A model generated the notes under the pieces. The model was not told the origin of the DNA, ran no database searches, and saw only the letters and a program-made list of their open reading frames with translations. Shown here piece by piece: positions 13,785 through 34,288 of a DNA stretch of 34,318 nt. The first letter of the stretch is position 1; each line of letters begins with the position of its first letter. The DNA comes from Clostridium thermobutyricum. Lineage in GTDB: Bacteria > Bacillota > Clostridia > Ch29. Made by a program: the position numbers and the translations under genes. The stretch covers positions 1 through 34,318 of the forward strand of contig JAENYD010000025.1 in NCBI GenBank assembly GCA_016842005.1, in the 5' to 3' direction.

Positions 13785-14495
13785 TCACTTTATTCTTTTT
13801 TTAATCAGGTCTTCAACATAGTCTAGGTGATTTTTCATCTCTTTCACAGCTTTTTCACTATCTCCTTCTTTTAAGGCCTGGTATATGTTGCGGTGTTGAT
13901 TGATGAAATTCATCATGCTGTCCTTATCCGAAACCAGTTTCGTTCTGGTATTTTTGATGTGAAAGTCCATTGCCTGGGAAATTGCCATCATTACATCGTA
14001 AAGCACCTTGTTTTTACTGGCCCGGGCAATGGTATAATGAAACATCCAGTCTGCCTTGACGCTGCGGTCTTCGTGGCCGGTGCTGTTGGTCAGGATGTCT
14101 ATATAATTGTTTATTTCCCTCAGCTCATCAGCTGTTATCCGTTCTGCCGCAAGGCGGACACAGCCGATTTCCAGTATCTTCCTCAGTTCAAGCAGTTCCA
14201 GGGCAAGATTCTCCTCCAGCATTAACACCAGGGATAAGGGCTCCAGGTCTATTGAATCCCCGTTGTCCCTGATGAAAGTCCCCTCACCCGGCCTGCTTTC
14301 AATAAGACCTATCATCTCCAGAACACTGAAAGCTTCACGGATGGAAGCCCTGCTGACATGCAACTGTTCTTTGAGTTCCCTTTCGGAGGGCAGTTTGTCT
14401 CCTTTCTTAAGCCTACCGCTGTAAATCTGCTCTTTTATTTGATTGATTACCTGTTCGTATACCTTGATATTTTTTATCGGCTGAAAGCCGTCCAT
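13785..14495 (-). CDS. GntR/FadR-family regulator, likely lactate-responsive
   Basis: This is a DNA-binding regulator of the FadR subfamily, expected to control the lactate operon as LldR does. The 236-aa protein has an N-terminal winged helix (about 10-75, with KLPSERELKEQLHVSRASIREAF) and a C-terminal FCD ligand domain. DWMFHYTIA, NQHRNIYQAL and MKNHLDYVE carry the Asp/His set that usually holds a metal and a small carboxylate. ATG 14495 lies 7 nt after GGAGG; the longer frame upstream has no ribosome site. It is transcribed in the same direction as the operon and ends about 480 bp before it. The best operator candidate is in the operon promoter at 13408-13418. The inducer is inferred from context. 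Confidence 0.87.
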   Translation of the reverse strand: MDGFQPIKNIKVYEQVINQIKEQIYSGRLKKGDKLPSERELKEQLHVSRASIREAFSVLEMIGLIESRPGEGTFIRDNGDSIDLEPLSLVLMLEENLALELLELRKILEIGCVRLAAERITADELREINNYIDILTNSTGHEDRSVKADWMFHYTIARASKNKVLYDVMMAISQAMDFHIKNTRTKLVSDKDSMMNFINQHRNIYQALKEGDSEKAVKEMKNHLDYVEDLIKKRIK

Positions 14496-14739
14496 ACTGA
14501 TACCTCCAGAATGCAGTAATAGATACCACAACAAAATTTGTATCAATGACCGCGTGGGTTTCCCGGGACATTGAAAAAATTACCTTAAACCTATATATTT
14601 ATTTTATGACAGATTGTATAAAAATTCTACATAATAATTTATTTCGTGGAGTTTATACCCGACAAAAAGCCTGAGCATTATTCAAGTTTAACAAAATGCC
14701 GGAAGAAGAGATGCAACGATGGCATGGACAATATCATGA

Positions 14740-15487: not shown

Positions 15488-16972
15488 ATGGATATGGATG
15501 AAAGACAACTCAGGCCCATTGTGGAGGCTTCATATTTGACTGCGGGTAATGCCTGGAGGTACCGGGCCATACTAAGGTACTTTTTTACCCAGCATGAAAG
15601 GATGAGGTATTACCTGTTCCCTGAAGAGGTCCTGGAATATTTGCGGAAGTATTCTCACTTTACGCAATATACCGAGGAGCAGTTACAGCAGGACCTGGGT
15701 CAGCTGGTTGAATGGAAGAATCTGATCCCCCGGCAGGATATGGGGAAAGTCCGGACTATTGAGGAGTTTAAGAAAAAACGGTTCCGCTACCAGTGTAGCC
15801 CTTATACGGTTGAGATTGAGCGGATGGTGAGAGGCCTTGAACAAAAAGGGGATGCTTTTGGCGGTTCTTTGGAAAAGAATCTGTTCGAGCGGATCTATGG
15901 GTTGCTGAACAGGCTTACCGGTGCAAAATTTTTGCATGACAGCACTCCTGAGACGGTTTATGGGATATGGGAGGAACTGTTTGATAATTTTAAAAAACTC
16001 ACGACCAATGCCAGTGACTACCTGGCCCATTTGGAAAGCGAGAAGGTTGAAGAGATGATGATGACAGAGGCTTTTTTAGTCTACAAGGAGTCTCTGACCG
16101 AATACCTGCGCAATTTTATGACGGCCATGCAGCGGTCTTCATATAAGATTGAAGCGTTGCTGGGGCAGGTGCAGCCTGAATACATATCCGGCTTATCTAA
16201 AATTCTTGCCGGTTATTATTTCAGTATACCACGATTGGAGGACAGCCCGGACAGGGATACGGTTATACAAAACTACCAGACCCAGTGGCAGGGCTTGGAG
16301 TCGTGGTTTTTGGGCTATGGCGGCAGGGAAAGTGACATGGTGTATTTGCAGAATACGACCAATGAAACTATCAGACGGATGACCCGTTATGCCCAGAGGC
16401 TGGGGGAGAAGCACCACAGTTTCCGGAGCAGGAAAAAGGATTACCTGCACCTGGCCGGGATGTTTGGACAGTGCAGGGATATCAAGGAGGCCCATGAGCT
16501 TTCGGCCTGCGCCTTCGGTGTTTTTCACACCCGGCATATTTTTGCTGATGTCAAGAATACGGAGGATATATACGTAGATCCCTGGGATATAGAACCTACG
16601 GAGATTATTATTAACCCGCGCATCCGCAGATATCATCCCAAGACGAGACCGCAGGCCGTAGTCAGTTTTTCACAAGAGAAGAACAGCCTGCTGGAGGAAT
16701 ATTTAAGCGAGAAGGAAGCGGAGCAGAAGCTGATCGAAAAGATATCGGTGGACAGAGGGATTGTTTTAAGCAAGTTGCATGGGGCAGATCCATATATCAG
16801 AAAGACGCTTTTGAACTGGATCACCAGGTGCATGGGGGACAAAGAGCTTAAGGGAAAGACGGAAACGGGACGCAAGATCAGGCTGGTGGTTTTGAGTAAC
16901 AGGGAAATCAGCATAGAATGGGATGACGGTGTTCTGGTAACACCGGATTATGCCTTCGAATTTTTGGATTAG
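15488..16972 (+). CDS. jetA: Wadjet type II JetA (TIGR02677/DUF2397 family)
   Basis: JetA is the kleisin-like subunit that closes the SMC-like ring of the Wadjet anti-plasmid complex. The 494-aa protein fits the length and layout of TIGR02677: an N-terminal winged-helix-like region (RPIVEASYLTAGNAWRYRAI, TEEQLQQDLGQLVEWKNL), a long helical middle, and a C-terminal part ending in a basic segment (GRKIRLVVLSNREISIEWDD). It is the first of four contiguous genes in the standard order A-B-C-D. The ribosome site (GTGGTG) is weak, so it may depend on coupling from the upstream HEAT-like gene. Assignment rests on gene order, size and recognisable sequence style. Confidence 0.85.
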   Translation: MDMDERQLRPIVEASYLTAGNAWRYRAILRYFFTQHERMRYYLFPEEVLEYLRKYSHFTQYTEEQLQQDLGQLVEWKNLIPRQDMGKVRTIEEFKKKRFRYQCSPYTVEIERMVRGLEQKGDAFGGSLEKNLFERIYGLLNRLTGAKFLHDSTPETVYGIWEELFDNFKKLTTNASDYLAHLESEKVEEMMMTEAFLVYKESLTEYLRNFMTAMQRSSYKIEALLGQVQPEYISGLSKILAGYYFSIPRLEDSPDRDTVIQNYQTQWQGLESWFLGYGGRESDMVYLQNTTNETIRRMTRYAQRLGEKHHSFRSRKKDYLHLAGMFGQCRDIKEAHELSACAFGVFHTRHIFADVKNTEDIYVDPWDIEPTEIIINPRIRRYHPKTRPQAVVSFSQEKNSLLEEYLSEKEAEQKLIEKISVDRGIVLSKLHGADPYIRKTLLNWITRCMGDKELKGKTETGRKIRLVVLSNREISIEWDDGVLVTPDYAFEFLD

Positions 16973-16984
16973 GGGAAATGCTGA

Positions 16985-18175
16985 ATGAATGAACATGGTT
17001 TTGATGAGATAGCCAGGGAAGCGGCGGCCTCTCTGCTGGAGAATTTCTGGGTTATTCGTGAAAAGGAACCGGAGCTCTATCAGAAAATCCGGGAGCGGGA
17101 AAGTGTTTTGCGCAATTTCTTTTTAGAGAAGCTGGGATTTAATCTGGTCATACATCGCATGTTTAGCAGGATAGAAAAATTTCCGGTTGAACCGGAACCC
17201 TGGATGGGTATCCAGGAGTTTAGAGAGTTAAGGGACTATGTGCTGTTCTGTTGTATTCTGGCATATATGGAAGGGAAGACAATTGATGAACAGTTTCTTT
17301 TATCTGACCTTTGCGAGGAGCTTGCAGCCCTTTATCCCGGAGAAGAAGGTCTGGACTGGACCCATTATGAACACAGGAAGTCTTTGGTGCGGGTTTTGCA
17401 GTTCGCTGCCGAACTGGGACTAGTCAAGCTGGTGGATGGCGATATCGGGGAATTTAACTATTCCGAAACAAGTGAAGCCCTGTATGAAGTGCCGCTGGTA
17501 TCCAGATATTTTTTGCGTTCGTTTCCCCGGGATTTGACGGTCATCGAACGGAAAGAAGATTTCCTAAAGATTGCGGCCGGGACGACGGAAGAGGATGAGA
17601 ATACGGGGCTGAAGCGCCGACACCGTGTTTACAGACGACTGTTTCTTTGTCCGGTTATGTATGCCGGGGGGCCGGAGGACCCGGATTTTTTGTACCTTCG
17701 AAATTATCGCAACAGGATCAGGGATGATGTGGAGAAATACAGCAGTTTTCAGTTTGAGCTTTTTAAAAACTGTGCCATGCTGACCCTGTCTGAGAACAAG
17801 AAGATGTACAGTATCTATCCCGATAACAGGGCTATTTCGGACATCGCCCTGCAATTTGCCGGGATTATCAGGGAGGAGAAGGAGGCCGATGATATCCCTC
17901 TGCAGTATGACGGTTCCCTGTGTTTGACCCCTGTTGATTTTGAAAAACGGGTTGGATACTGCAAAGAAAGGTACGGAGCAGGCTGGAGCAAGCAGTACCG
18001 GGAGGCCCCGGTACACGAAACCGCCCGGGACCTTTTGGAGCTTCTGATGGACTGGCGTATGGCCTCACAGGAAGAAACAACCGGGGTGATAAGCCTGCAT
18101 CCTTTGCTGGCCAGGACGGTAGGCAGGTATCCGGGTGATTTTGAAGCGGGAGGTGAAAGGGATGCAAATGAATAG
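16985..18175 (+). CDS. jetB: Wadjet type II JetB (TIGR02678/DUF2398 family)
   Basis: JetB is the small KITE-like partner of JetA in the Wadjet SMC complex. The 396-aa protein matches TIGR02678 in size and style, with REAAASLLENFWVIREKEPE at the start, a winged-helix-like region around WTHYEHRKSLVRVLQFAAEL and the conserved-looking RRHRVYRRLFLCPVMYAGG. AGGGGA lies about 8 nt before ATG 16985, 12 nt after jetA. Its end overlaps jetC by 14 nt, so B and C are translated together. Confidence 0.85.
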   Translation: MNEHGFDEIAREAAASLLENFWVIREKEPELYQKIRERESVLRNFFLEKLGFNLVIHRMFSRIEKFPVEPEPWMGIQEFRELRDYVLFCCILAYMEGKTIDEQFLLSDLCEELAALYPGEEGLDWTHYEHRKSLVRVLQFAAELGLVKLVDGDIGEFNYSETSEALYEVPLVSRYFLRSFPRDLTVIERKEDFLKIAAGTTEEDENTGLKRRHRVYRRLFLCPVMYAGGPEDPDFLYLRNYRNRIRDDVEKYSSFQFELFKNCAMLTLSENKKMYSIYPDNRAISDIALQFAGIIREEKEADDIPLQYDGSLCLTPVDFEKRVGYCKERYGAGWSKQYREAPVHETARDLLELLMDWRMASQEETTGVISLHPLLARTVGRYPGDFEAGGERDANE

Positions 18176-21100
18176 ATGGCAGCTTCACCGGGCTGGTATT
18201 CTGAATTTCTGGTATTACGATGAGGAAGAATTTCATTTTGCCGATGGCAAGCTTCTGCTCAGGGGGAATAACGGGTCGGGAAAATCCGTAACCATGCAGA
18301 GCCTTATTCCTTTACTCCTGGACGGGAAGAAGAGCCCTGAACGTTTAGACCCTTTTGGTTCCCGGGCCCGGAAGATGGAAGATTATCTTTTGGGAGAAAA
18401 GGATGTAGTGGACAGGGAGGAGCGTACAGGCTATCTGTTTCTGGAATATAAAAGGGAGGGGCTGGAACAGTACCTGACAACCGGAATAGGACTTAGAGCC
18501 AAAAGGATGAAAGGGCTGGAGTTCTGGGGTTTTGTTATTGCGGACAACAGGCGGCTGGGTCATGATATTTTGCTGTATAAAGAGGAATATAACGGGGAGA
18601 CGGGTAAGGAAGAGAAGATACCCCTGACCAGGAACGAACTGGAGAACCGTATCGGAGACGGGGGACGGGTTGTTCAGACCCAGGGAGAGTATATGGAGTT
18701 GGTCAATCGCTACATCTTTGGTTTTGAATCCTCAGAGGGTTATGAGGAGCTGATCAAGCTTTTAATCCAGTTGAGAAGCCCCAAACTTTCCCGGGAATTC
18801 AAGCCCACGGTTATCTATGAAATACTGAACGAATCCCTTCCCGCTCTTTCGGATGAGGAGTTGCGGCCACTTTCGGATACCATTGAAAACATGGATCAAA
18901 CAAAACAGCAACTGGAGCAACTGCAGCGTGACCAGCGTTCGGTGAACAGGCTGTGCAGGCAATATGACCAGTATAACCGTTTTGTTTTTATGGAAAAGGC
19001 GGAAGCTTTACTGAATGTCCATAATGATGTCCTGAAATATGGCCGCGAAAAAGAGGAACTGGAGCGGGCCCTTGAGGAAAACCGCCGAAAGCTTGCGGAA
19101 AAGAACAAGATGGTTGAGGAGTTACACCGGGAGGAAGCCGTCCTGAAGGAAGAAAAGACGGCCCTGGAAAGGCATAAGGTCTTTTCGGTGGAAAATGAAA
19201 AGATGGAGACCGAAAAAAGACTGGAAAGGGCCCGGGATCAATATGCCCAGAAGGACCGGAATCTGATGAAGAAGAAAAGGGATGAACTGAAACTTCGGCA
19301 GAATATTGCCCAAAAGGAGGAAAAGATTGACCAGCTGGATAACAGTATCGCCAGCATACTGGGAGAAATGGAACTGAAGGCCGGAGAGGCAGGTTTTGCA
19401 GGACACGGGCTGGCTGCAGGGGAATTTACTGCCTCATATAAGAAAGAGTATGTTTTTGACCTGTGGAGGAAGGATGCCGATGAATACAACAACAGGCTGG
19501 AAGCTGTCCTCAAAACACTAAGGGAGCAAAACAGGGCTGTAGAAAGGTACAAGGAGGCTGACCGGGAGCTGGCTGAAGCCCGAAAAATACTGGATATTCT
19601 GCGGAATGATGAGCGGAAATGGTATGACCTGTTTGAAGAAGAGAAGGGCAGAGTCTTGACGGCCATTTACCAGTGGCAGAAGGGGAATAAAGAACTGAGC
19701 CTGGATGAAGGGGCTATGCAGGAAGTATCCCGTTGTTGTGGTCTTCTTTATGACGAGTATACCTATGAACAGGTCAAAAAACCTGTATTACAGGCATACC
19801 ATGTTTATTCCAAAGCCCTGCAGGAAGAAAGGGCCAGGTTCCAGAGCAGGGTGGAAGAAAAGAAAGCTGCTGTGGAATGCAAAGAAGCTGAACTGAAGGA
19901 CTGGAAGGCTAAAAAGGAACCGGAGCCCGACCGGCACCCGGACACACGGACGGCTAGGAGTCGTCTGGTCCAAAAGGGGATCCCCAATATGCCCTTTTAC
20001 AGGGCTGTAGAATTCAGGGATAATATCAGTGATGAGCAGAAGGAGCGGCTGGAGGCCGCCATTGCACAGATGGGATTGCTGGATGCCCTGATTGTTCCTG
20101 AAAAACACCTGGCTGAGGTTGATGAAAACGACAGGGTGATTATACCCCGGCCTAAGTTTATGGCCCATACCCTGGCTGATTTTCTGTGTCCGGCCCGGTT
20201 TGAAGATACAGGGATAACTCCGGAAGATATTGACAGTGTGCTGCGCAGCGTCCTTTTAGAGGACGCTGAGGATGGGGTAACGGTTATCGACGATAAGGGA
20301 AAGTATCGCCTTGATATCCTCAGAGGGCATGCACCCGGGCAGGAGGCTTCCATCTATATCGGGCAGGAGTCCCGGAAGGCGTACAGACAGCAGACGATTG
20401 ACCGCTTAACAGAAGAACTGTGTATGCTTATGTCAGAATTGGAAAAATTAGAGAAACAAGAAAAGCTGCTGGGGGACAGACTGGATATGCTTGAAGAGGA
20501 ATACGATCGCTTTCCGGGAGATCAGGATGTCCGGGATGTCTACCGTAATTACCGGGAGATTTGTGAAAAGATTGAGATACGTCAGGCTGAAGTCGGGGAA
20601 AAGAACGAAAAGGTGAAAGAGAAACTGGAAGAGTTGAGGAAGGTTCAGAATGCACTGCGCAGGATGGTTGAGGGAATGACTATTCCCCGTGAAGAAGAGG
20701 ATTATGAGCAGGCCCGCGGGCAGATGCGGGTGTATCTCAAACTGCTGCAGAAACTGGAACTCACCTACAAGGATTATACCAATAATGCCGGTTTGCTTAG
20801 ACAGTACCAGGAGAATCTTGATGATATCATCCTGGACGTTGATGAAATCAAGGGTGAATTGAATGTCCTGTCCGGTGAGATCGAGCAGTACGAGTTTAAG
20901 CTGGTTATGATAGAAGAACGGCTGAAGGAGATGGGAGCCGAAGATGTCAGGCTGAAGGTCAACCGGGTGCAAACACGGCTGGATGAGATTGCATACGAAA
21001 TCCCCAAATGCCAGAAAGAAGCCAATGATTTGGAATACCTGATAAAAGATACGGACAGGCAGTTGTCCCGTAATGAGATTATGCAACAGAATTACAACAG

Positions 21101-22349
21101 GCTCTATACGCTCTGGGAAAAGGTTTTCAGGGAGGAGCTCAGGCTTGGGCTGGTTAAAGATGCCTGGCTGAACGGGCAGGATGCTGAGTTGCCGGCAGAT
21201 GCGCTGCTTAAACTGGCCAGGCAGGCTCTGCAGCAATATGGAGAGCTTAAGAATGATCTGGACAGGGATAAAGTGGCTGCCGGTCTTAACAGAGTTTTTT
21301 TTCAAGAGCAGGGAGTTTTGGTGGAATACCGTCCCACACAGGAAGAAAGCGGGGAGATAAGCGCTGAGTGGGAAGGCCTTCCGGAAAGGGAAGAAGATAA
21401 TCAGCTCATGCGATTCCGTTTTGAGGAACTGCCGGCAAAATCCAGGCGTATCCAGCTGCTCTTGGAGTATGAAGGCAAACGGGTAAGCCCCTACTTCGTA
21501 CTTAAACAGCTGGATGATGATATAGAACTGCAAGAGGCCATTCTCAGCGAGAAAGACCGCCAACTCTATGAAGAGATTATTATGAACAGTGTGGGCAGGA
21601 TTATACGCGGCAGGATAAACCGGGCGGAGCAGTGGGTCAAGCAGATTGACGGGCTGATGTCCCAGCGGGATTCATCCAGCGGACTGACGTTTTCCCTGCG
21701 CTGGAAGCCCCTGACGGCCAGCCGGGAAGATGAGCTGGATACCAGGGAACTGGTAGACCTTTTGCGGCGGGATCCCCGGCTTATGAAAGAAGAGGATATG
21801 GAGAGGATCACGCGGCATTTCAGGTCGAAAATAAACAGGGCCAGAGAGGTCATGGTGGAAAAAGGCTATGGAGAGACACTGCACCAGGTCATCAAGGAGA
21901 TGCTGGACTACAGGCAGTGGTTTGCCTTTACCCTTTATTATCAGAAAACGGGTGAACCCAAAAAAGAGCTGACAAATAACGTTTTTTATACCTTCAGCGG
22001 CGGGGAGAAGGCCATGGCCATGTACATTCCTCTGTTTTCGGCAGCCTATTCCCGCTATATGGAGGCGCGGAAGGATGCACCCTTTATTATCTCCCTTGAT
22101 GAGGCCTTCGCCGGGGTAGATGAGAACAACATCCGGGATATGTTTGACCTTCTGGAGAAACTTGGTTTCAACTATATCATCAACTCCCAGTCCCTATGGG
22201 GTGATTATGATACGGTGTCATCCCTGTCCATCTGTGAGCTGGTGCGACCCAAGAATGCGCCCTATGTAAGTGTGGTCCGTTATCTCTGGAACGGAAAGAC
22301 AAGACGGCTTTTACTGCCTGAGGAGTATGTGGAGGCTGTTGCCAGATAG
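18162..22349 (+). CDS. jetC: Wadjet type II JetC, SMC/MukB-like ATPase (TIGR02680 family)
   Basis: JetC is the motor of Wadjet: an SMC-like ATPase thought to extrude DNA loops so that the partner nuclease can cut small circular DNA. The 1395-aa protein has a Walker A (GNNGSGKS, 35-42), two long charged coiled-coil arms and a central hinge-like globule near residues 600-740 (around IPNMPFYRAVEFRDNI and GLLDALIVPE). The C-terminal head has the ABC signature FSGGEKAMAM (about 1279) and Walker B IISLDEAFAGVD (about 1310-1320). All ATPase motifs look intact. ATG 18162 follows GGGAGGTG; an in-frame GTG 27 nt upstream has no ribosome site. Confidence 0.92.
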   Translation: MQMNRWQLHRAGILNFWYYDEEEFHFADGKLLLRGNNGSGKSVTMQSLIPLLLDGKKSPERLDPFGSRARKMEDYLLGEKDVVDREERTGYLFLEYKREGLEQYLTTGIGLRAKRMKGLEFWGFVIADNRRLGHDILLYKEEYNGETGKEEKIPLTRNELENRIGDGGRVVQTQGEYMELVNRYIFGFESSEGYEELIKLLIQLRSPKLSREFKPTVIYEILNESLPALSDEELRPLSDTIENMDQTKQQLEQLQRDQRSVNRLCRQYDQYNRFVFMEKAEALLNVHNDVLKYGREKEELERALEENRRKLAEKNKMVEELHREEAVLKEEKTALERHKVFSVENEKMETEKRLERARDQYAQKDRNLMKKKRDELKLRQNIAQKEEKIDQLDNSIASILGEMELKAGEAGFAGHGLAAGEFTASYKKEYVFDLWRKDADEYNNRLEAVLKTLREQNRAVERYKEADRELAEARKILDILRNDERKWYDLFEEEKGRVLTAIYQWQKGNKELSLDEGAMQEVSRCCGLLYDEYTYEQVKKPVLQAYHVYSKALQEERARFQSRVEEKKAAVECKEAELKDWKAKKEPEPDRHPDTRTARSRLVQKGIPNMPFYRAVEFRDNISDEQKERLEAAIAQMGLLDALIVPEKHLAEVDENDRVIIPRPKFMAHTLADFLCPARFEDTGITPEDIDSVLRSVLLEDAEDGVTVIDDKGKYRLDILRGHAPGQEASIYIGQESRKAYRQQTIDRLTEELCMLMSELEKLEKQEKLLGDRLDMLEEEYDRFPGDQDVRDVYRNYREICEKIEIRQAEVGEKNEKVKEKLEELRKVQNALRRMVEGMTIPREEEDYEQARGQMRVYLKLLQKLELTYKDYTNNAGLLRQYQENLDDIILDVDEIKGELNVLSGEIEQYEFKLVMIEERLKEMGAEDVRLKVNRVQTRLDEIAYEIPKCQKEANDLEYLIKDTDRQLSRNEIMQQNYNRLYTLWEKVFREELRLGLVKDAWLNGQDAELPADALLKLARQALQQYGELKNDLDRDKVAAGLNRVFFQEQGVLVEYRPTQEESGEISAEWEGLPEREEDNQLMRFRFEELPAKSRRIQLLLEYEGKRVSPYFVLKQLDDDIELQEAILSEKDRQLYEEIIMNSVGRIIRGRINRAEQWVKQIDGLMSQRDSSSGLTFSLRWKPLTASREDELDTRELVDLLRRDPRLMKEEDMERITRHFRSKINRAREVMVEKGYGETLHQVIKEMLDYRQWFAFTLYYQKTGEPKKELTNNVFYTFSGGEKAMAMYIPLFSAAYSRYMEARKDAPFIISLDEAFAGVDENNIRDMFDLLEKLGFNYIINSQSLWGDYDTVSSLSICELVRPKNAPYVSVVRYLWNGKTRRLLLPEEYVEAVAR

Positions 22350-22361
22350 GAGATGGGTTAT

Positions 22362-23720
22362 ATGGATCAAAAGAAGCTTCTCAAGGAAGCGGTAAGATTT
22401 TTTCGCTCCGAACAGGGTTTAAGAAGACTGATGAACGGGTTTATCAAAAACTACCGCAGTCTGGGACGCGTGGGTGGTACGGTAAAACTTAGCAATATGA
22501 CACCCCGGGAAAGAGAAGCGCTTTCTGGTCTTTTGGGTAAAGATTACAGCCGTCAAACATCGGCAACCGTATCGGTAGCAAAATTTGGGAAGAGTCTGGA
22601 AAAAACCAGGTTTGCCGGTGTGAACCTGCAAGAATTATTGCTGGCTTATGCGGACAGTGAGGTTTTAACAAAGGCTGAAGAGAAGGAAAGATATAACGAA
22701 AAGAGAGAAGCCTTTTTCCAGAGGCTTCTTAACAAGCATCCTCACCCTCTCTGTCAGGAATGGCTTGAGCATATTCATGCAAGGGGCAGCGGTACGCGGG
22801 GCATAAATATTATGTATGACCGGGACCCCGGGCTGCTGGAAAAACAGTTGAACAGGGTACTGAAAGCGCTGGCTGCAGCCCTTATGCAAAAAGAGGCGGG
22901 AGAATTCCGGCGTTTGCCGGTTTTTGCAGGAAAAGTAGCGAATGACCCCCATGCCTTTGACCCCGGGACCGACCAGGGCAGGATGCTTATTAATGCCCTG
23001 CGCTTTATCCGTTCTGCCAGGGAAAAGAATTTTCAGCACTATGACCTGCAGGGGACCGAAGCAATGACTGAACTTCTGGCCTATTTTGGTATTCTGCGGG
23101 ATGACCTGCATAATTATGTTACTTGCACCGGAATTGTACCTCTTGAAAAAGAGCGGTCACAGCCGGTTGGTTGGTGGCAGGAGGCCTGTCAGGCGTGGAC
23201 AACATTAAATCTGCCCTTACGGGAAATTGTCAGGTATGCATCCTTCCTTCCTGTTTATAGTGAAAAGGTGAATGTTGTCTTTGCTGTGGAGAATTCAGGC
23301 GTTTTCTCGGAAATCATTGACCATTTTCAAGCTGGAGACTTTTGCCCTCTGCCGCTGGTTTGTACTAACGGACAGTTTAAACTGGCAGCATTGTATCTTT
23401 TTGATGGTCTGGTTAAAAACAGGACTTTGATATATTATTCGGGTGATTTTGATCCGGAAGGATTGCAAATGGCCCAACGGTTATATGAGAGATATCCGGA
23501 GCAACTCAGGCTGTGGCGTTATGGGACAGCAGATTATGAAAAATGCCATCCGGAGATAACCATTTCTCCGCAAAGGTTGCGGAAACTGGACAATATAGAA
23601 ATACCTCCTCTGATTTCTACGAGGGAAATGCTTCGGAGCAGGGGTAAGGCCGGTTACCAGGAACATATTCTGCAGCAACTGATTGGTGACATAAAAAATA
23701 TTTATTACAGAATATCCTGA
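22362..23720 (+). CDS. jetD: Wadjet type II JetD, Toprim-domain nuclease (TIGR02679/DUF2399)
   Basis: JetD is the nuclease subunit of Wadjet. The C-terminal half holds a Toprim fold: VFAVENSGVFSEI with the catalytic Glu near residue 307, and YYSGDFDPEG with the Asp-x-Asp pair near 360, both complete. The N-terminal half (KLLKEAVRFFRSEQGLRRL, SGLLGKDYSRQTSATVSVAK) is the DNA-arm type region of DUF2399 proteins. ATG 22362 lies 9 nt after AGGAG; the ATG at 22353 touches that site. It ends only 55 bp before the tRNA-Thr remnant where the phage element begins, so it is chromosomal rather than phage cargo. No strong terminator is visible after it. Confidence 0.9.
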   Translation: MDQKKLLKEAVRFFRSEQGLRRLMNGFIKNYRSLGRVGGTVKLSNMTPREREALSGLLGKDYSRQTSATVSVAKFGKSLEKTRFAGVNLQELLLAYADSEVLTKAEEKERYNEKREAFFQRLLNKHPHPLCQEWLEHIHARGSGTRGINIMYDRDPGLLEKQLNRVLKALAAALMQKEAGEFRRLPVFAGKVANDPHAFDPGTDQGRMLINALRFIRSAREKNFQHYDLQGTEAMTELLAYFGILRDDLHNYVTCTGIVPLEKERSQPVGWWQEACQAWTTLNLPLREIVRYASFLPVYSEKVNVVFAVENSGVFSEIIDHFQAGDFCPLPLVCTNGQFKLAALYLFDGLVKNRTLIYYSGDFDPEGLQMAQRLYERYPEQLRLWRYGTADYEKCHPEITISPQRLRKLDNIEIPPLISTREMLRSRGKAGYQEHILQQLIGDIKNIYYRIS

Positions 23721-23774: not shown

Positions 23775-23823
23775 TGGAGCCAACGATGGGACTTGAACCC
23801 ACGACCTACGCATTACGAGTGCG
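23775..23823 (-). other. Attachment site: 3' fragment of tRNA-Thr(CGT)
   Basis: On the minus strand this is the 3' part of a tRNA. It has four anticodon-stem pairs around the loop CTCGTAA (anticodon CGT, Thr), a variable region, the T arm GTGGG-TTCAAGT-CCCAT, the acceptor strand CGTTGGC, discriminator T and an encoded CCA (23775-23777). The D arm and 5' acceptor strand are absent; the sequence upstream of 23823 is unrelated. This is what a tRNA-integrating element leaves at one end, so the core crossover probably lies within these 49 bp. Confidence 0.85.
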
Positions 23824-23960: not shown

Positions 23961-25199
23961 TTACGCTTGTTTCTGATCAGTGGGTGAATTCTTTTTGAAA
24001 ATGCCCTCCATAATGTCCGCAGCTTGCCTGTCTGCACTCTGTAGAACATGAGAATATACCCGCAAGGTAACATCGGGGTTTGCGTGTCCCATACGCCCGG
24101 CAACCGCCCGGACGTTTAGACCTTCATGGATAAGTATGGTTGCAGCCAGGTGCCTTAAGTCATGAAAGCGTATATGCGGGAGGTTATGACGCTTTAAAAA
24201 CTTATTGAATATGCTTGTGACGCTATCAGGGTGTATTATATAACCGTCCCATGTCGCAAATACCCATTCTGGGTCTTCCCATAAGTCACCTTGTTTTACC
24301 TTTTCTTCTTTTTGCCATAAGTCCCCAATTTTAATCTTTTGTTCAAGTTGCCATTTCCGGTACTGCTTCAGTAATTGAACAGTAGAAGCCGGAATTGCTA
24401 TTTGTCGGACACTGGACCTTGTTTTAGGCGGTTTTATCCGTACCCCTGTTGCCGGAGTATACTCAACTGATTGTTGTATATGTAAAGTACCATCATCCAA
24501 GTCAATATGTTTTTTCCATTGCAGGGCGACGAGCTCTCCACGCCTACAGCCGGTCACAAGAGCCAATTCAATTATTGCCCGATACTTCAGGGGTTCTGTT
24601 TCTAATGCTGCCAGAAGTTTTCGGATATTGCCCTCGTCTAGTTGAGGCATTTCTTTTGACGTTATTTTTGGGGGTTTCACTTTTTCACAAGGGTTTTCTT
24701 TCAGCAGGCCCCACCGGACGGCATCAGCCAGCATTGCACTCAATACCCGGTGGTAATACTGAATTGTGGAATTCGAAAGTCTTCCGCCCCTTCCGTCTTC
24801 CCTTATGCCATCCTCCTGCAAGTTCCCATAGAACTCCAATAAGTGCATAGGCTTCAACTGTTCAAGTTTTAGGTGTCCCAGGGCTTTTGCAACCCGTCCT
24901 TTCAATATTCCTTCATAGCGCAGCTTTGTTTTATTCGCTAAAGATTTACCATGTTCTTCAATCCATTTTTCAGCGAAAGTTGAAACTGTAAAATGTGATG
25001 GCTCAAAGTAAGTACCTCTTTGGACCGCTTCTTCAAATAAAGTCGCCTGCCGCTGGAGTTCCTTTTCTCGCTGCCGTTCTGTCAATCCTGGGTCCAGCTT
25101 GACTGTCTTTGTACGCTTTAGTTTCTTACCATCAGGTGTATAGCCAAGACTTACAGTTATTCGGTATGAATTTTCACCTCGTTTACGGATTGATGCCAT
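23961..25199 (-). CDS. int: Tyrosine-recombinase phage integrase
   Basis: This enzyme catalyses site-specific integration and excision of the element at tRNA-Thr. The 412-aa protein has an N-terminal arm-binding domain (SIRKRGENSYRITVSLGY), a core-binding SAM-like domain and a C-terminal catalytic domain. The catalytic set is Arg in TGCRRGELVALQW, His-x-x-Arg in FHDLRHLAATIL, His in GRMGHANPDVT and the nucleophile Tyr in LRVYSHVL. ATG 25199 follows GGAGG at good spacing; this ribosome site lies inside the end of the upstream gene, whose stop codon is one base before the ATG. Integrase expression is therefore tied to that gene. Confidence 0.95.
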   Translation of the reverse strand: MASIRKRGENSYRITVSLGYTPDGKKLKRTKTVKLDPGLTERQREKELQRQATLFEEAVQRGTYFEPSHFTVSTFAEKWIEEHGKSLANKTKLRYEGILKGRVAKALGHLKLEQLKPMHLLEFYGNLQEDGIREDGRGGRLSNSTIQYYHRVLSAMLADAVRWGLLKENPCEKVKPPKITSKEMPQLDEGNIRKLLAALETEPLKYRAIIELALVTGCRRGELVALQWKKHIDLDDGTLHIQQSVEYTPATGVRIKPPKTRSSVRQIAIPASTVQLLKQYRKWQLEQKIKIGDLWQKEEKVKQGDLWEDPEWVFATWDGYIIHPDSVTSIFNKFLKRHNLPHIRFHDLRHLAATILIHEGLNVRAVAGRMGHANPDVTLRVYSHVLQSADRQAADIMEGIFKKNSPTDQKQA

Positions 25200-25200
25200 G

Positions 25201-26019
25201 TTAGTCGCCTCCTGTTTTTTTATTTTTACTCTTTCGCTGGTTACGCTGGTTACGTTTTTTAAGTGTTTCATAACATGTTTTACTACATGTTTTTGCGTTT
25301 ATCCTCCTCATATTAGGTCCAAGACAGACAGGGCAAATCCTTATACTTTCCTGTAGACAAATGTAAAAATATAAATATAAAGCCGTTAAAAGGTTTGGCG
25401 GTTCTAGGAAAGGTTTTCTTAATCTAATCTTCGCGTCTCCAATTTCCGCTAATGAAGTTTTTACTATTTTTTCATTCCCTATAGATAGATCCTTAATTCT
25501 TGATGCGATCTTTCGCATAATATAACGGAATCCTGTATATGAGAATACTTCTGTATTCATTTCTACATCTCTTATTGATTCTTCTAAAAAAACTTCTGGA
25601 GAAAACTTATTATTTTCAAATACATTTATAACAGTTAATGATTTATCAAAAATGAACTTTTCAACTTTAAGCCATTTTTTTAGATCATCAATACGAGCAT
25701 TTTGCACTTGCTCATTTTTTTTCCACAATTCTGTAATTTTTGCTCCTTCCTTTATGAAATCCTCAACACTTTCATGGTCACCACTTGAAACAAGGAACCC
25801 AAATTTTTTAACATAATCAAGTATTTCAGACTTGTTAGCTCTTTTCTTTCTGAATATTTTGATTAATTCAAAAAATGGGTTGTCAATTGTATTGCCTTTG
25901 TTACTTTCGAAATTTATTTTATGTGCATTGCTTTGCCCCTGACCAATAAGATAGCCCTTTTCCATACTAATTTCCTTATAAACTTCATTGTAACAAATCA
26001 AACCAAAACAAATATTCAT
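25201..26019 (-). CDS. Unknown protein with C-terminal zinc-finger, coupled to integrase
   Basis: I do not recognise the full 272-aa protein. The C-terminus has Cys-x-x-Cys (ICPVCLGP) followed 14 residues later by Cys-x-x-x-Cys (KTCSKTC) and a very basic tail. This is the treble-clef/CGNR-type finger seen at the end of some transcription regulators. The larger N-terminal part is helical, charged and AT-rich. The gene is expressed with integrase: its stop codon is one base before the integrase ATG, and the integrase ribosome site lies within its last codons. It occupies the place where a phage repressor usually sits, so a regulatory role is plausible but unproven. Confidence 0.75.
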   Translation of the reverse strand: MNICFGLICYNEVYKEISMEKGYLIGQGQSNAHKINFESNKGNTIDNPFFELIKIFRKKRANKSEILDYVKKFGFLVSSGDHESVEDFIKEGAKITELWKKNEQVQNARIDDLKKWLKVEKFIFDKSLTVINVFENNKFSPEVFLEESIRDVEMNTEVFSYTGFRYIMRKIASRIKDLSIGNEKIVKTSLAEIGDAKIRLRKPFLEPPNLLTALYLYFYICLQESIRICPVCLGPNMRRINAKTCSKTCYETLKKRNQRNQRKSKNKKTGGD

Positions 26020-26746: not shown

Positions 26747-27619
26747 GTGGCGGATGGATATATAAAGATTTATCGACAAGTAAGGCAACATTGGACGTAT
26801 AAGAGGTCTGAGTATTTTCACGCTTGGTTTGAAATGCTGGCCTGCGCAAAATACACGCCAGAGCCGGAAACCAGGCTTATTGAAGGGCAGTTAGTTACAA
26901 TCAATTACGGTGAATTCGTATTTGGTAGAACAAGCTGGAGTAAGCGTTTAAATATTCCCGAAACAGTCTTACGAGGGTTAATCCAAAAACTTGTAAGGGA
27001 CGGCATGATTGAGCTAGTTGGCAGATATAATAAATGCACTGTATACAGAATTCAGAATTACGGAAAATTTAACCAGCGAACCGACCAGCAAACTAACCAG
27101 CAACAAACACTAGATAATCAAGGCATTGAGGGGTATAGTGACCAGCAGATTAACCAGCGATTAGCCAACAGGCAGCCAGCAGGCAACCACACTCAAGAAA
27201 GTAGAAGAAAAAGTAGAAGAATCAAACAATTTATAAATGACTCTTTTCGTGAAATTAAAAATTTCAGACAAAGGTATGACGATGAAACTTTACAATTAAT
27301 CGATGACTATTTAGACATTCTGCGGACGACACGGGTCAGCAATAGAATAAGTGACAGCGTTATCTGTAAAGTGTACGAGCAAATGTCTAAATATCCAGTT
27401 ATTGTCGTTAAATACGCATGCAATACAATCATTAACAACCCGGCTTTACACAGCAAGAAAGAAAATTATTTCTTTGGGATTATGAGAAATACACAAGCCG
27501 ATGAGGCGGCTGAAAAATTACGGAAGTATGAGGCCGAACAAGCAGCAGGACCCGTAAAGCCTAATCCACAGTATATGAGGTTAAAGGAGTTGGTTAACCG
27601 TGGAAGCACAGGAATATAA
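26747..27619 (+). CDS. Phage replisome organiser/DnaD-like replication protein
   Basis: This 290-aa protein is probably the origin-binding or helicase-loading factor of the element. Its N-terminus (GYIKIYRQVRQHWTYKRSEYF, GQLVTINYGEFVFGRTSWSK) followed by a winged helix (LNIPETVLRGLIQKLVRDGM, ELVGRYNKCTVYRIQNYGKF) is the pattern of Firmicutes phage replisome organisers. A Gln/Asn-rich linker and a helical C-terminal domain follow. It starts at GTG 26747 and overlaps the primase-helicase gene by 20 nt, so the two are coupled. The C-terminal domain is not clearly a standard DnaD domain. Confidence 0.75.
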   Translation: MADGYIKIYRQVRQHWTYKRSEYFHAWFEMLACAKYTPEPETRLIEGQLVTINYGEFVFGRTSWSKRLNIPETVLRGLIQKLVRDGMIELVGRYNKCTVYRIQNYGKFNQRTDQQTNQQQTLDNQGIEGYSDQQINQRLANRQPAGNHTQESRRKSRRIKQFINDSFREIKNFRQRYDDETLQLIDDYLDILRTTRVSNRISDSVICKVYEQMSKYPVIVVKYACNTIINNPALHSKKENYFFGIMRNTQADEAAEKLRKYEAEQAAGPVKPNPQYMRLKELVNRGSTGI

Positions 27620-29438
27620 GCAACGACTAGGCGATAGGGCAAGGGATATTATCGCTTATGGGTTAGGGCTTGACAAATACCGACCATCAAGGAATGAAGC
27701 CCTTTGTCCCTTTCACCGAGAGAAAACACCGTCATTGAAGTGGGACAGCAAGCATTATACCTGGAAATGTTTTGGTTGCGGGGAAACGCTGGATATATAC
27801 AGATACCTAACCGAGTTTAAACATATGAGCTTTCCAGAAGCGGTCCGGGAAGCCGCAAATATGGTGGGTGGTGAAGTAAAATTGACGACATATAAGCCGG
27901 TCACTGAATACCGAAAACCAAATATTGAAACATGTGATTTAAGCCAAGAAGCAATTCAGTATATGGCAAGCCGGAAGATATCGCTGCAAACCCTGAATGA
28001 TTGGAGAGTGAAACAAAAGGTCTGGAACGGTAAGGAATGTTTTGTTTTTCAATACTTTGACGATAATAACGAATTGCAATTCGTTTCATATAGGGAGATT
28101 AAAAAGGGCGGTCTAAAAGGCGGCTGCGAGAAGAATACAAAGCCTATCTTGTGGGGTATGTGGCATATAAATAGAAAAAAGCCTGTGGCTATCGTTGAGG
28201 GCCAGCTTGACGCTATGTCGATATGGGAAGCGGGATATAAGAATGTTGTTTCGGTTCCTTCCGGCAGCAATAATCTTTCATGGATAGACCATTGTTGGGA
28301 TTGGCTACAGGATATTGTTGAATTTATCGTATGGGCTGACAACGACCTGCCGGGGCAGAAAATGGCTAATGAATTGCAGATAAGGTTAGGTAAGTACAGG
28401 ACTAAAATAATCACACATAAGCGCAAGGATGCAAATGAGGTTTTGTTTTATGAGGGTAAAGAAACACTGCTGGAATTTATAGGTAATATTATAGAGCAAA
28501 CACCTGCCGGAATAATTAATATGTCGCAGGTGGATTATACCGGCGTAAAAAATAAGGTTGACGAAGGGATACCGACAGGTTTTTATCAACTGGACAGTAC
28601 GATTGAAGATTTACAACCTGAGCAATTGACGGTGTTGGTTGGTAGGAATGGAGAGGGTAAGTCTACTGTCATATCGCAAATTATCTGTAATTGTATAGAT
28701 AACAGGATTCCAGTATTCCTCTATTCCGGAGAAATGTCCACCCAAAGAATTTTGAATTGGCTTTTCAGACAGGCTATTGGAGACGAAAAGGAATACCTGG
28801 AGTTTGTCAAAACCAAGTACAGGCTCAAAGCCGATATAAGGCCGGCGGCATTGGAAGCGCTAAAACAATGGATAGCGGACCTATTTTTCACATTCGATAA
28901 ATCAGTGCTAAATATCAGGAAGGACACAAAAGACCTATTCGATGTTATGTCGGTGGCCGCCAGGCGGTATGGATGTAAGCTTTTTATAATCGATAATCTC
29001 ATGTCTGCTCTGGAAGAAACTGCTGACAGTATAAACGCAGATCAAAGCAATTTCGTTCAGCAGTGTAAAGATTTTGCAGAAAATTACCGGGTTCATGTAA
29101 TTCTCGCCACCCACCCCAACAAGATAAAGGGACGTGGGGAGAAGCTTGAAAAGGAAGATATTAGCGGTTCCAACAATATTCCAAACAAGGCAGACGTGAT
29201 TATATCAATCGAACGGCAGTTTAAGAATGACCGGGATTGTGATGCCAAATTAAGGCTATTAAAAGACCGAGAGGAAGGCCGATACACAGAAGTAAAACTT
29301 ATTTTTCAGGAAACGACGAAACGGTTTTTAGAGTTAGAAGGCGACAAGATAAGACCCATTAATTACAACTGGCGGCAGCATCTTGAAAATGAGGATTGGC
29401 ATGAGGTTGATATTGAGGAAAATGCTTTACCATTTTGA
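27600..29438 (+). CDS. Bifunctional phage primase-helicase (T7 gp4-like)
   Basis: This enzyme unwinds DNA and makes primers at the element's replication fork. The 612-aa protein has, in order, a CHC2 zinc finger (Cys36, His39, Cys57, Cys60), a Toprim primase core (VEGQLDAMS with Glu200 and Asp204; WADNDLPG with Asp247 and Asp249) and a DnaB/RecA-type helicase with Walker A GRNGEGKST (348-356) and Walker B LFIIDNLMSA. All key residues are present. It starts at GTG 27600 after AAAGGAG (27583-27589). The fusion lets the element replicate with little help from host DnaG and DnaB. Confidence 0.92.
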   Translation: MEAQEYKQRLGDRARDIIAYGLGLDKYRPSRNEALCPFHREKTPSLKWDSKHYTWKCFGCGETLDIYRYLTEFKHMSFPEAVREAANMVGGEVKLTTYKPVTEYRKPNIETCDLSQEAIQYMASRKISLQTLNDWRVKQKVWNGKECFVFQYFDDNNELQFVSYREIKKGGLKGGCEKNTKPILWGMWHINRKKPVAIVEGQLDAMSIWEAGYKNVVSVPSGSNNLSWIDHCWDWLQDIVEFIVWADNDLPGQKMANELQIRLGKYRTKIITHKRKDANEVLFYEGKETLLEFIGNIIEQTPAGIINMSQVDYTGVKNKVDEGIPTGFYQLDSTIEDLQPEQLTVLVGRNGEGKSTVISQIICNCIDNRIPVFLYSGEMSTQRILNWLFRQAIGDEKEYLEFVKTKYRLKADIRPAALEALKQWIADLFFTFDKSVLNIRKDTKDLFDVMSVAARRYGCKLFIIDNLMSALEETADSINADQSNFVQQCKDFAENYRVHVILATHPNKIKGRGEKLEKEDISGSNNIPNKADVIISIERQFKNDRDCDAKLRLLKDREEGRYTEVKLIFQETTKRFLELEGDKIRPINYNWRQHLENEDWHEVDIEENALPF

Positions 29439-29854: not shown

Positions 29855-30364
29855 GTGGGTTATATCAGGCGACATGAAATCGAAATATTATTGCGTAACT
29901 ACCAGGGCATAAAAGCTATGGCGGAAAGCTTGAGATTAGAACTTCAATCAGTTTCAGCCGAAAGCCAGACAGATGTGATCGAAAGTTTCATGTTTCATAG
30001 AAACTTCGATGCCCTTCCGAAGGGCAAAAATACCATTACCGATAAGACCGGTAATATTGCATCAAGACCGACAAAGATGGATACGAGGGCAGAGATTGCA
30101 AGAGAAATATCCGGGGAACTCTTCCTTTTCAGCACAGTTTTGCAGAAAATGGATATCGCCCTTAATACATTAAGACCAAGCGAAAAAGAGATTATTGAAT
30201 TGCGGTACTTTAAAAATCTTACTTGGATACAAATTGCTGATAGAACCTTAGTAAGCATAGGCAGTGCTCAGCGATGTAGAGCCGAAGCCATGAAGAAGAT
30301 AACGGTAGTTTCCCGAATTTCGATTGATGACTATAACAGACTTATCGAAATATTAAATCTTTGA
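29855..30364 (+). CDS. ArpU/RinA-like late transcription regulator
   Basis: The 169-aa protein resembles the sigma-like late activators of Firmicutes phages. An acidic helical N-terminus is followed by a C-terminal sigma-70 region-4-type helix-turn-helix: LRPSEKEIIELRYFKNLTWI then ADRTLVSIGSAQRCRAEAMK. Such proteins switch on packaging and structural genes. Start is GTG 29855, directly after the G10 tract. A sigma factor for other targets is possible. Confidence 0.65.
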   Translation: MGYIRRHEIEILLRNYQGIKAMAESLRLELQSVSAESQTDVIESFMFHRNFDALPKGKNTITDKTGNIASRPTKMDTRAEIAREISGELFLFSTVLQKMDIALNTLRPSEKEIIELRYFKNLTWIQIADRTLVSIGSAQRCRAEAMKKITVVSRISIDDYNRLIEILNL

Positions 30365-32341: not shown

Positions 32342-32400
32342 AGTTGGGGGGCTATTGTGCCTCCTCGAATATTAAATTGATTTGAAAGGATGTGTTTAAA

Positions 32401-33369
32401 TTGACGATGGGTATCGGGTTCATCATAAATGAGTATGCGTTTCTTGCCTCGGATAAACGGACTACAAACTTGAATCCGGACGGAAGTGACGGGGAACGTA
32501 CGGATGGAGCCTGTAAGGTATTTCCCCTCTCCGAAAGGACCCTCGTGTTTTGTGGCGGCATAGTGCAAGTAACAAAACCATTGAGCCGGAAGTTAATTCG
32601 GGAATTCGGCAGAAAAGAAAACCTTGATTCTATAGACTTCGAGAGGATAACTACACTATGTCGGGAGCAATACGAGGCGTTTATGTCCCGGGTGGACGAC
32701 AAACTCAAAAATTCACCCTGGCTCCGGGATTTCGTTTTATCGGTTATCGTCGTCGACAATGTTGTTAAGCCCAGGCTCATAAGGTTTGACGTTGAAGATA
32801 ACTTTAAACCGATAATACAAACCGACCAGGGGGCCCTATGTGTGAAATCAGCGATTGATCCCGAGGAACTCTGGCCTGAAATCCAGAGGATTGCTGCCAA
32901 AATGAGCGGGAACGGGAATATGGATCCCATTAAATTCATTGATGCCATTTTTAGTCAAGCATCGAAGATGGACGGTGCAATCTCTTATGCTCATGACATC
33001 TTCCAGATTGCCCCACCACCAGCAAAACAAGGAAAACAAGGCTTGTTTTTCCAAAAAATCACTGGAGGAACGATTACGGCGACAATACGCATGACTAGCC
33101 CGATTATAACAGGCGGCTCAATTTCCGTTGATACTGATATGACCATAGGCAGAAAGTTATACATACAAACAAGCGATTTCACTGATGGTATTTATTTTGA
33201 TACTTTCAGTGGTGATAGTTTGACAGTTGACCCTGGTGGTGCTTTAAAGTACTCTTCTCATTTCTGGGCCCATGGTATCCATGATTTTAACGGCGATAGC
33301 GGGTCTTTCGGCACAGCGGATGGGAAAACAGTAACTGTAAATGACGGAATAATCACAAGCATAGCTTAA
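32401..33369 (+). CDS. Proteasome-like Ntn-hydrolase domain fused to phage fibre-like tail
   Basis: The first ~170 residues read like a proteasome beta/HslV subunit. If the initiator Met is removed, Thr1 leads into MGIGFIINEYAFLASDKRTT with Asp17, Lys18-Arg19 and Thr21 in proteasome positions. Then CKVFPLSERTLVFCGG places Lys38 where catalytic Lys33 sits, with five extra residues before it. FVLSVIVVDNVVKPRLIRFD fits the next strands. The last ~110 residues are Gly/Thr/Ser-rich beta repeats (TGGTITATIRMTSPIITGGS) ending TADGKTVTVNDGIITSIA, as in phage tail-fibre or baseplate proteins. TTG 32401 gives Met-Thr and lies 10 nt from GAAAGGA; GTG 32392 would add three residues and is only 2 nt away. 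A virion-associated self-processing or proteolytic role is inference; the domain could be inactive. Confidence 0.6.
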   Translation: MTMGIGFIINEYAFLASDKRTTNLNPDGSDGERTDGACKVFPLSERTLVFCGGIVQVTKPLSRKLIREFGRKENLDSIDFERITTLCREQYEAFMSRVDDKLKNSPWLRDFVLSVIVVDNVVKPRLIRFDVEDNFKPIIQTDQGALCVKSAIDPEELWPEIQRIAAKMSGNGNMDPIKFIDAIFSQASKMDGAISYAHDIFQIAPPPAKQGKQGLFFQKITGGTITATIRMTSPIITGGSISVDTDMTIGRKLYIQTSDFTDGIYFDTFSGDSLTVDPGGALKYSSHFWAHGIHDFNGDSGSFGTADGKTVTVNDGIITSIA

Positions 33370-33407: not shown

Positions 33408-33584
33408 ATGCCTGGTAAACTGACGAGAGCGGAAAGGGAAACAATAATCCGCTTCGATGAAGCAGGTGAAACCGCTGAATTTCCGAAAAAATTAATTACT
33501 TTACGGTCAAAAACAGTGAAAAAGGAATTGACGGAAGAACAACGTCAAAAATTGACCGAAAGAATATTACAAAATCAATTCTAA
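33408..33584 (+). CDS. Small phage-associated protein
   Basis: A 58-codon frame starts ATG 33408, 8 nt after AAGGGG (33394-33399). The peptide opens MPGKLTRAERETIIRFDEAG and is charged and helical. Proteins with this opening recur in Firmicutes prophages and plasmids, but I know no function. It may share a message with the fusion gene 38 nt upstream. Confidence 0.6.
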   Translation: MPGKLTRAERETIIRFDEAGETAEFPKKLITLRSKTVKKELTEEQRQKLTERILQNQF

Positions 33585-33814
33585 GCTGAGAAACACGGTT
33601 AGCGTATGGGAAAAATGAAATTTTAATTTCAAAGTAATGCTATGGTATGCCTAGGGTATTATTCCCCTTAAAAATGCCCTTATTTAGTGCGAGATCGCAA
33701 AATAAAATTGAAATGAGGTGTTCTAATGCATATTTTCAGGTATCCCTGATGGATTCAGTTACGGCCATAAGGTATAATGCTATTAGAAAGTATTACCAAG
33801 GAGGCGAATGTATT

Positions 33815-34288
33815 ATGAAAAAATTTGTTACAGGCTTTATAATTGGCGCCCTATTGTTCGGCATAATCCCGACTAATGCAGCGATACAGGAATATATACT
33901 CTACAAGGCAGATTACAAAGTAGTTATAAATGGTATTGAATATGTCAATGAAGAACTACCGATCCTGAATTACAAAGGCAGCACCTATGCACCTTTCAGG
34001 AGTATATTAGAGGCAGCAGGCTTAAATGTAAACTGGAATGCTGAATTAGGACAAGCAGAGGTAACCGGAGCATCTGAACCGATGACGATGGAGGAGGGTG
34101 GAGATATGAGCGATATGCAGACATATAAGGAAAACGGTTATGATGTTGTTGTTGAGGATGGAGTTGAGTATTACCCGATGAAATTAATTTTAGACAACAT
34201 AAGGTCCAATGGGTACGATATCATATATGATAATGTAACTGATGCTTGTTTTTTAATAAAGTTTAATACTACTCCGTCAAAGTGCTAA
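33815..34288 (+). CDS. Secreted copper-amine-oxidase-N stalk-domain protein
   Basis: The 157-aa protein is exported: MKKFVTGFIIGALLFGIIPT followed by Asn-Ala-Ala is a signal peptide with a likely cleavage site. The mature part contains one stalk repeat of the copper amine oxidase N-terminal type (VVINGIEYVNEELPILNYKG, YAPFRSILEAAGLNVNWN), common in cell-wall proteins of Firmicutes, and then a partial second repeat (VVEDGVEYYPMKLILDNIRS). ATG 33815 follows AAGGAGG; the frame extends further upstream without a ribosome site. TATAAT at 33773-33778 may give it its own promoter. In a prophage it would be a lysogeny-expressed surface protein; that role is inferred. Confidence 0.75.
   Translation: MKKFVTGFIIGALLFGIIPTNAAIQEYILYKADYKVVINGIEYVNEELPILNYKGSTYAPFRSILEAAGLNVNWNAELGQAEVTGASEPMTMEEGGDMSDMQTYKENGYDVVVEDGVEYYPMKLILDNIRSNGYDIIYDNVTDACFLIKFNTTPSKC

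Follow-up and report, generated by a model that had tools for sequence, protein, structure and literature searches.

Fuchs et al. (2021; PMC8665760) defined 22 new subfamilies of proteasome-like proteins. One of them, Firmicute Cluster 4 (FC4; representative WP_076223917.1), is restricted to Firmicutes and has C-termini similar to phage tail proteins; its function is unknown, no model of it was given, and the gene contexts of the new homologues were uninformative. According to the same survey, proteasome homologues other than proteasome beta and HslV carry no propeptide. Phage- or prophage-borne proteasome-like proteins are further represented by PPH (about 140 residues, without helix H2; PMC8665760), by AAH and by the family PHROG_1040 (‘peptidase HslV family’).

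Here, we analyse a protein of the same general kind encoded on a 34,318-nucleotide contig of Clostridium thermobutyricum (JAENYD010000025.1, assembly GCA_016842005.1), this whole stretch being hereafter called the window. The window protein and FC4, compared by description only, have in common their occurrence in Firmicutes, a proteasome-like domain and a tail-like C-terminus. The window protein fits that description and is thus not a new kind of protein. An earlier note on this DNA had called a virion protein with a built-in self-activating hydrolase unusual; the fusion has a precedent, as FC4 homologues with phage-tail-like C-termini had already been reported (PMC8665760). However, whereas FC4 came without informative contexts, element and prophage contexts as well as a fold model can now be added. 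The features of the locus are collected in table 1.

Table 1. Features of the window element and of the gene encoding the N-terminal nucleophile (Ntn) domain fused to a fibre-like region (Ntn-fibre gene). Coordinates are those of the window.
Feature	Position	Strand	Basis
attL, 3' fragment of tRNA-Thr	23780..23823	+	identical 44-mer inside intact tRNA-Thr, contig C55 (attR side)
Tyrosine integrase	23961..25271	-	41% identical to sister-element integrase
DnaD-like helicase loader	26747..27619	+	PHROG 2514, E 1.2e-23
Primase-helicase	27600..29438	+	68% identical to sister-element primase-helicase
Sigma-like phage transcription regulator	29855..30364	+	PHROG 36, E 2.4e-13; 36% identical to L072 10501-11091
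Shine-Dalgarno-like AAAGGA	32385..32390	+	10 nt before TTG 32401; read directly from sequence
Ntn-fibre gene	32401..33369	+	322 aa, TTG start, Met-Thr N-terminus; ORF listing, translation, homologues with equal start
N-terminal proteasome-type Ntn domain, about residues 1-205	32401..33015	+	AlphaFold2 and Foldseek
Thr1 codon, putative nucleophile exposed by Met removal	32404..32406	+	Thr/Ser in 12/12 homologues; aligns with proteasome beta mature Thr1
Asp17 codon	32452..32454	+	at least 90% of 12 homologues
Arg19 codon	32458..32460	+	at least 90% of 12 homologues
Lys38 codon, equivalent to proteasome Lys33	32515..32517	+	invariant, 12 homologues
Gly52 codon, equivalent to oxyanion-hole Gly47	32557..32559	+	invariant, 12 homologues
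C-terminal fibre-like region	33016..33369	+	KITGGTITATI..GGSISVDTDMTIG segments, TADGKTVTVNDGIITSIA end; alignment with homologues' C-termini
Secreted stalk-domain (Cu_amine_oxidN1) protein, adjoins Ntn gene	33647..34288	+	PF07833, E 2.9e-7

The open frame of the gene extends from 32392 to 33369 on the forward strand. The earlier note had placed the start at TTG 32401, from which the product begins MTMGIGF (MTMGIGFIINEYAFLASDKRTT), and this choice holds: the ribosome-site distance given in table 1 shrinks to a gap of only 1 nt at the upstream GTG (32392), and both of the closest relatives also begin with Met-Thr (MTCGIGF and MTMGLCM). A longer product from GTG 32392 is ruled out by this spacing and by the homologue starts. 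Methionine aminopeptidase removes the initiator Met when Thr or Ser follows, so that no propeptide would be needed to free the N-terminus.

Counting the Thr after Met as residue 1, the window protein displays Thr1, Asp17, Arg19, Thr21, Lys38 and Gly52. In an alignment of twelve very divergent relatives (mostly 10-30% identity), Thr or Ser follows the Met in every case and the equivalents of Lys33 and Gly47 never vary, while Asp17 and Arg19 are near-invariant, the exceptions being Glu for Asp in L080 and Ala for Arg in L073. The conservation of the Thr1/Asp17/Lys set, which the earlier note had named beforehand as the test of its assignment, is thus borne out across these relatives, and a putative Thr/Ser nucleophile of proteasome-like Ntn hydrolases occupies its predicted N-terminal position. 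The 14 residues between Lys38 and Gly52 equal the Lys33-Gly47 spacing of the proteasome, the segment before the Lys being therefore 5 residues longer. At the position of proteasome Ser169, the window protein has Ile (alignment read by eye), so that part of the classical proteasome hydrogen-bond network is changed or absent. In a loose form, the motif also arose when the domain was shuffled (41 of 200,000 shuffles), and it recurred once elsewhere in the window, among 200 open segments; taken by itself, it is thus suggestive, a lead only, and the observation is settled by the profile, fold and conservation tests. A chance motif is ruled out by the profile and fold evidence, as follows.

Using an alignment of twelve phage-type relatives, into which no proteasome or HslV row entered, AlphaFold2 produced a confident model of the N-terminal domain (pLDDT 91.0, pTM 0.87); the single-sequence model was uninformative (pLDDT 34). 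Its elements are arranged in the Ntn order, i.e. strands, two helices, strands, two helices and a strand. Compared with the PDB by Foldseek, the model gave 1023 matches at E <=0.001 (best E 4.8e-9), and the best 50 of these 1023 were without exception proteasome subunits or HslV, with probability 1.00 and TM of about 0.5-0.65. Among viral models (BFVD), the fold search retrieved phage proteins, some of them named proteasome beta or HslV. These results bear out the proteasome-type Ntn fold that had been proposed from the sequence by eye and whose absence the earlier note had named as a refutation.

The profile evidence leads to the same superfamily. Indeed, a profile built from the twelve domains and searched against PDB chains found proteasome beta (E 8.5e-11) and yeast Pre3 (beta1; E 3.7e-9), the alignment spanning almost the whole domain and setting profile position 2 over residue 1 (Thr1) of the mature chain. 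A profile from the three closest sequences only was too weak (archaeal proteasome beta, E 0.2), so that the sequence link to the proteasome rests on the wider family. Individually, seven of the twelve members matched the Pfam Proteasome family (PF00227) at E <=0.1 (best 8.8e-8), with 30.1 to 32.5 bits for L056, L057 and L058 (cut-off 22.4), whereas the window protein alone had nothing significant in Pfam, PHROGs, NCBIfam or PADLOC, and no PF00227 match. The membership of the N-terminal domain in the proteasome superfamily is thereby confirmed, by fold and by sequence profile. It is not HslV proper, for which no Pfam or NCBIfam match was obtained, the one PF00227 gene of the genome being located on contig C45.

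Compared with 20S proteasome beta and HslV (PF00227), the window protein has the same fold, with Thr1, Asp17, Lys33 and Gly47 in equivalent places, but differs in having no propeptide, a fibre-like C-terminus, no conserved Ser169 and no match to the Pfam family. Unlike PPH, it has both helix pairs in the model and a C-terminal stalk.

The remainder of the protein, about the last 118 residues, is of another nature. Its alignment with the C-termini of homologues reveals a common module (GG-S/N-I-x-V-x-T-D/N-M/A-T-I-G), with the strongest likeness between the window protein and an L094 paralogue (40%) or L073 (35%). At its end, the protein has a weak match to the C-termini of proteins from Vibrio phages (57% over 35 aa, E 0.3); it also resembles the end of a phage-type protein that a related clostridial genome encodes beside a terminase-like gene (48% over 62 aa). 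Most relatives have phage fibre-like C-termini: in the PHROG scan, homologues' C-termini matched PHROG_32308 (unknown function; 2e-9 and 1e-12) and, weakly, tail-fibre families, whereas the C-terminus of the window protein itself matched neither. Accordingly, ‘fibre-like’ is a fair term for the family and an indirect one for the window protein. The phage fibre-like C-terminal part announced by the earlier note stands.

Searched on its own against phages, plasmids, viral contigs and genome contigs, the window protein gave weak C-terminal matches or none, and no close relative was found in the phage and plasmid records searched. A full-length relative is present in another clostridial genome (L036/L055; 29%, E 2.5e-16) and a closer one in a Tepidanaerobacteraceae genome (L072; 57% over 243 aa); profile searches added L056, L057, L058, L073, L080, L081, L089, L090 and L091. 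The hosts of the relatives are clostridial genomes, and the family is rare: among 391 genomes of the class, 8 had a match at E <=0.001, window included, some of these matches being weak.

Several architectures were encountered along the way. Two Ntn-fibre paralogues stand in tandem in L094 (7169-8407 and 8719-10026), one of them matching PHROG_1040 (E 0.0012); in the first, four residues (MKKI) precede the Ser aligned with residue 1, so that this paralogue would either need removal of a short propeptide or be inactive. In L091 / L095 (4707-8267), an Ntn domain (MSMCIIITDNNGIIMAGDSR...) opens a 1186-aa protein in which a long, seemingly helical C-terminus replaces the fibre. L092 (1501-2169) and L064 (967-1671) encode proteins of about 220-234 aa that lack a fibre and begin with MTYCAAW and MSTVLAY; these look like further family members outside any obvious prophage. 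In L073, a 241-aa protein (13983-14708) encoded before the terminase matched the N-terminus of connectase MJ0548 weakly (PF09894, E 0.0013, below cut-off).

The window gene lies in an integrated element. The 44-base tRNA-Thr fragment at its left end has a sole other copy in the genome, within the intact tRNA-Thr of contig C55; no att repeat was found inside the window, the partner site being the one on C55. The window contig ends at 34318, the element being split by this contig break toward C55, where the 4.6 kb preceding the tRNA-Thr are occupied by small ORFs together with one for an excisionase-like helix-turn-helix protein. Structural genes were not seen in the visible parts of the element. 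Directly left of the tRNA-Thr fragment, the window also contains a complete type II Wadjet operon (JetA2, JetB2, JetC2, JetD2; 15488-23720).

Some neighbours of the gene recur elsewhere. The stalk-domain protein also adjoins the Ntn-fibre gene in L073 (10768-11577, PF07833 1.3e-37) and L056 (5865-6506, by eye), and the tape-measure protein of L084 seems to contain a comparable stretch; the stalk-domain protein may be a partner in function or a passenger common in phages. Near the Ntn gene, both the window (33408-33584, matching PHROG 1709) and L072 (9888-10133) encode a small protein bearing an ETIIRFDE motif.

L072, the sister element, is complete and measures 11.9 kb, bounded at tRNA-Lys by perfect 50-bp repeats. 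Besides the Ntn-fibre gene, it carries an integrase, a primase-helicase, a sigma-like gene resembling late regulators, small ORFs and one excisionase-like ORF, but no recognisable capsid, terminase or tail gene. It thus has the features of PICI-like phage satellites (compact size, tRNA integration, integrase and replication genes, no structural genes seen), and we read both elements as satellite-like. A decayed prophage is possible as well, but the compact gene order common to two genera and the intact repeats argue against it. Unlike PICI-like satellites, these elements carry a fibre-type enzyme, and neither a terminase small subunit nor another hijacking gene was identified here; searching the literature for satellites that have both fibre and primase genes yielded none. 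Other contexts are more phage-like or mixed: in the L073/L082 prophage, also present in IMG/VR, the Ntn gene is located between helicase and terminase-portal genes; in L096 and L094 it is near sigma-factor or integrase genes; in L083 and L084 it comes directly after the tape-measure gene. Membership in an ordinary tail module is unsupported at the window locus, and the earlier claim of a virion protein exceeds the evidence, as no structural genes were seen with the gene in L072 or in the visible parts of the window element and only two relatives adjoin tape-measure genes.

From these observations, a function can be proposed, namely that the protein is a proteasome-superfamily enzyme of a mobile element (phage or phage satellite) borne on a fibre stalk. 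Translation would begin at TTG 32401, and the host methionine aminopeptidase would strip the Met, leaving Thr1 as a free N-terminal nucleophile in a propeptide-free enzyme; the charge-relay and oxyanion site would consist of Asp17, Arg19, Lys38 and Gly52. The beta-rich C-terminal stalk may oligomerise the enzyme, dock it onto virion or tail-assembly proteins, or both. In activity, the protein would be a peptidase or amidase (or acyl-transferase) specific for one or few substrates, and not a general degradation machine; the enzyme would be made late in the life cycle of the element, and its target could be a virion protein or the cell surface. What the computation establishes of this is the fold, the conserved site, the fusion and the mobile setting. 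Several points count against this reading: the Ser169 equivalent is Ile, Arg19 is missing in one relative (L073), proteasome subunits are inactive until assembled (PMC8665760), and a fibre stalk may be incompatible with a ring. Taken as a whole, we give this explanation about an even chance.

Proteasome alpha subunits are inactive homologues that make structural use of the fold (PMC8665760), and the window domain might likewise be a catalytically dead module that provides a phage fibre only with an adaptor or oligomerising head; the loss of Arg19 in L073 and the residues preceding Ser1 in the L094 tandem relative agree with this. However, early loss of Thr/Ser1 would be expected of dead homologues, whereas this residue and the Lys33/Gly47 equivalents persist in all twelve divergent relatives, including at the codon right after the start Met, which makes a purely structural role decidedly unlikely. 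If the domain is active, its chemistry might be that of a connectase-like protein ligase or transpeptidase, attaching peptides to proteins of the virion or surface rather than degrading these. Connectase, a homologue of the proteasome, does ligate proteins (PMC8665760), and an enzyme with one site on a stalk fits modification better than bulk degradation; but the connectase-type two-helix insertion was not seen, the segment before Lys38 being only about five residues longer, and no sequence relationship tied the protein directly to connectase. We hold this chemistry to be highly improbable.

An intracellular moron, i.e. a protease of host takeover, interference or protection that never enters the virion, with the fibre part as an oligomerisation stalk only, would account for the company of early, regulatory or integration genes, outside the tail module, in the window, L072, L055, L073, L094 and L096. 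We consider it a real possibility though somewhat unlikely, given C-termini like those of phage fibre and tail proteins (PMC8665760) and the post-tape-measure position in L083 and L084. For the proposed stalk-borne enzyme, virion contact would in turn require a helper phage, since neither the window nor L072 shows capsid or tail genes alongside the gene. In a more speculative version, which seems to us rather improbable, a satellite with an enzyme-tipped fibre places a self-activating proteasome-fold hydrolase on helper-phage virions or remodels helper tail proteins. If true, such a satellite would shift helper adsorption or assembly to its own advantage.

In any case, what is new here is that the fibre-fused kind of proteasome homologue is tied to prophages, to a compact element of satellite-like type and to a position after the tape-measure gene, and that it has a confident fold model with an intact site. 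Whether a Thr/Ser-dependent Ntn hydrolase is carried on phage or satellite particles, and what it may cleave there, has thereby become a testable question.
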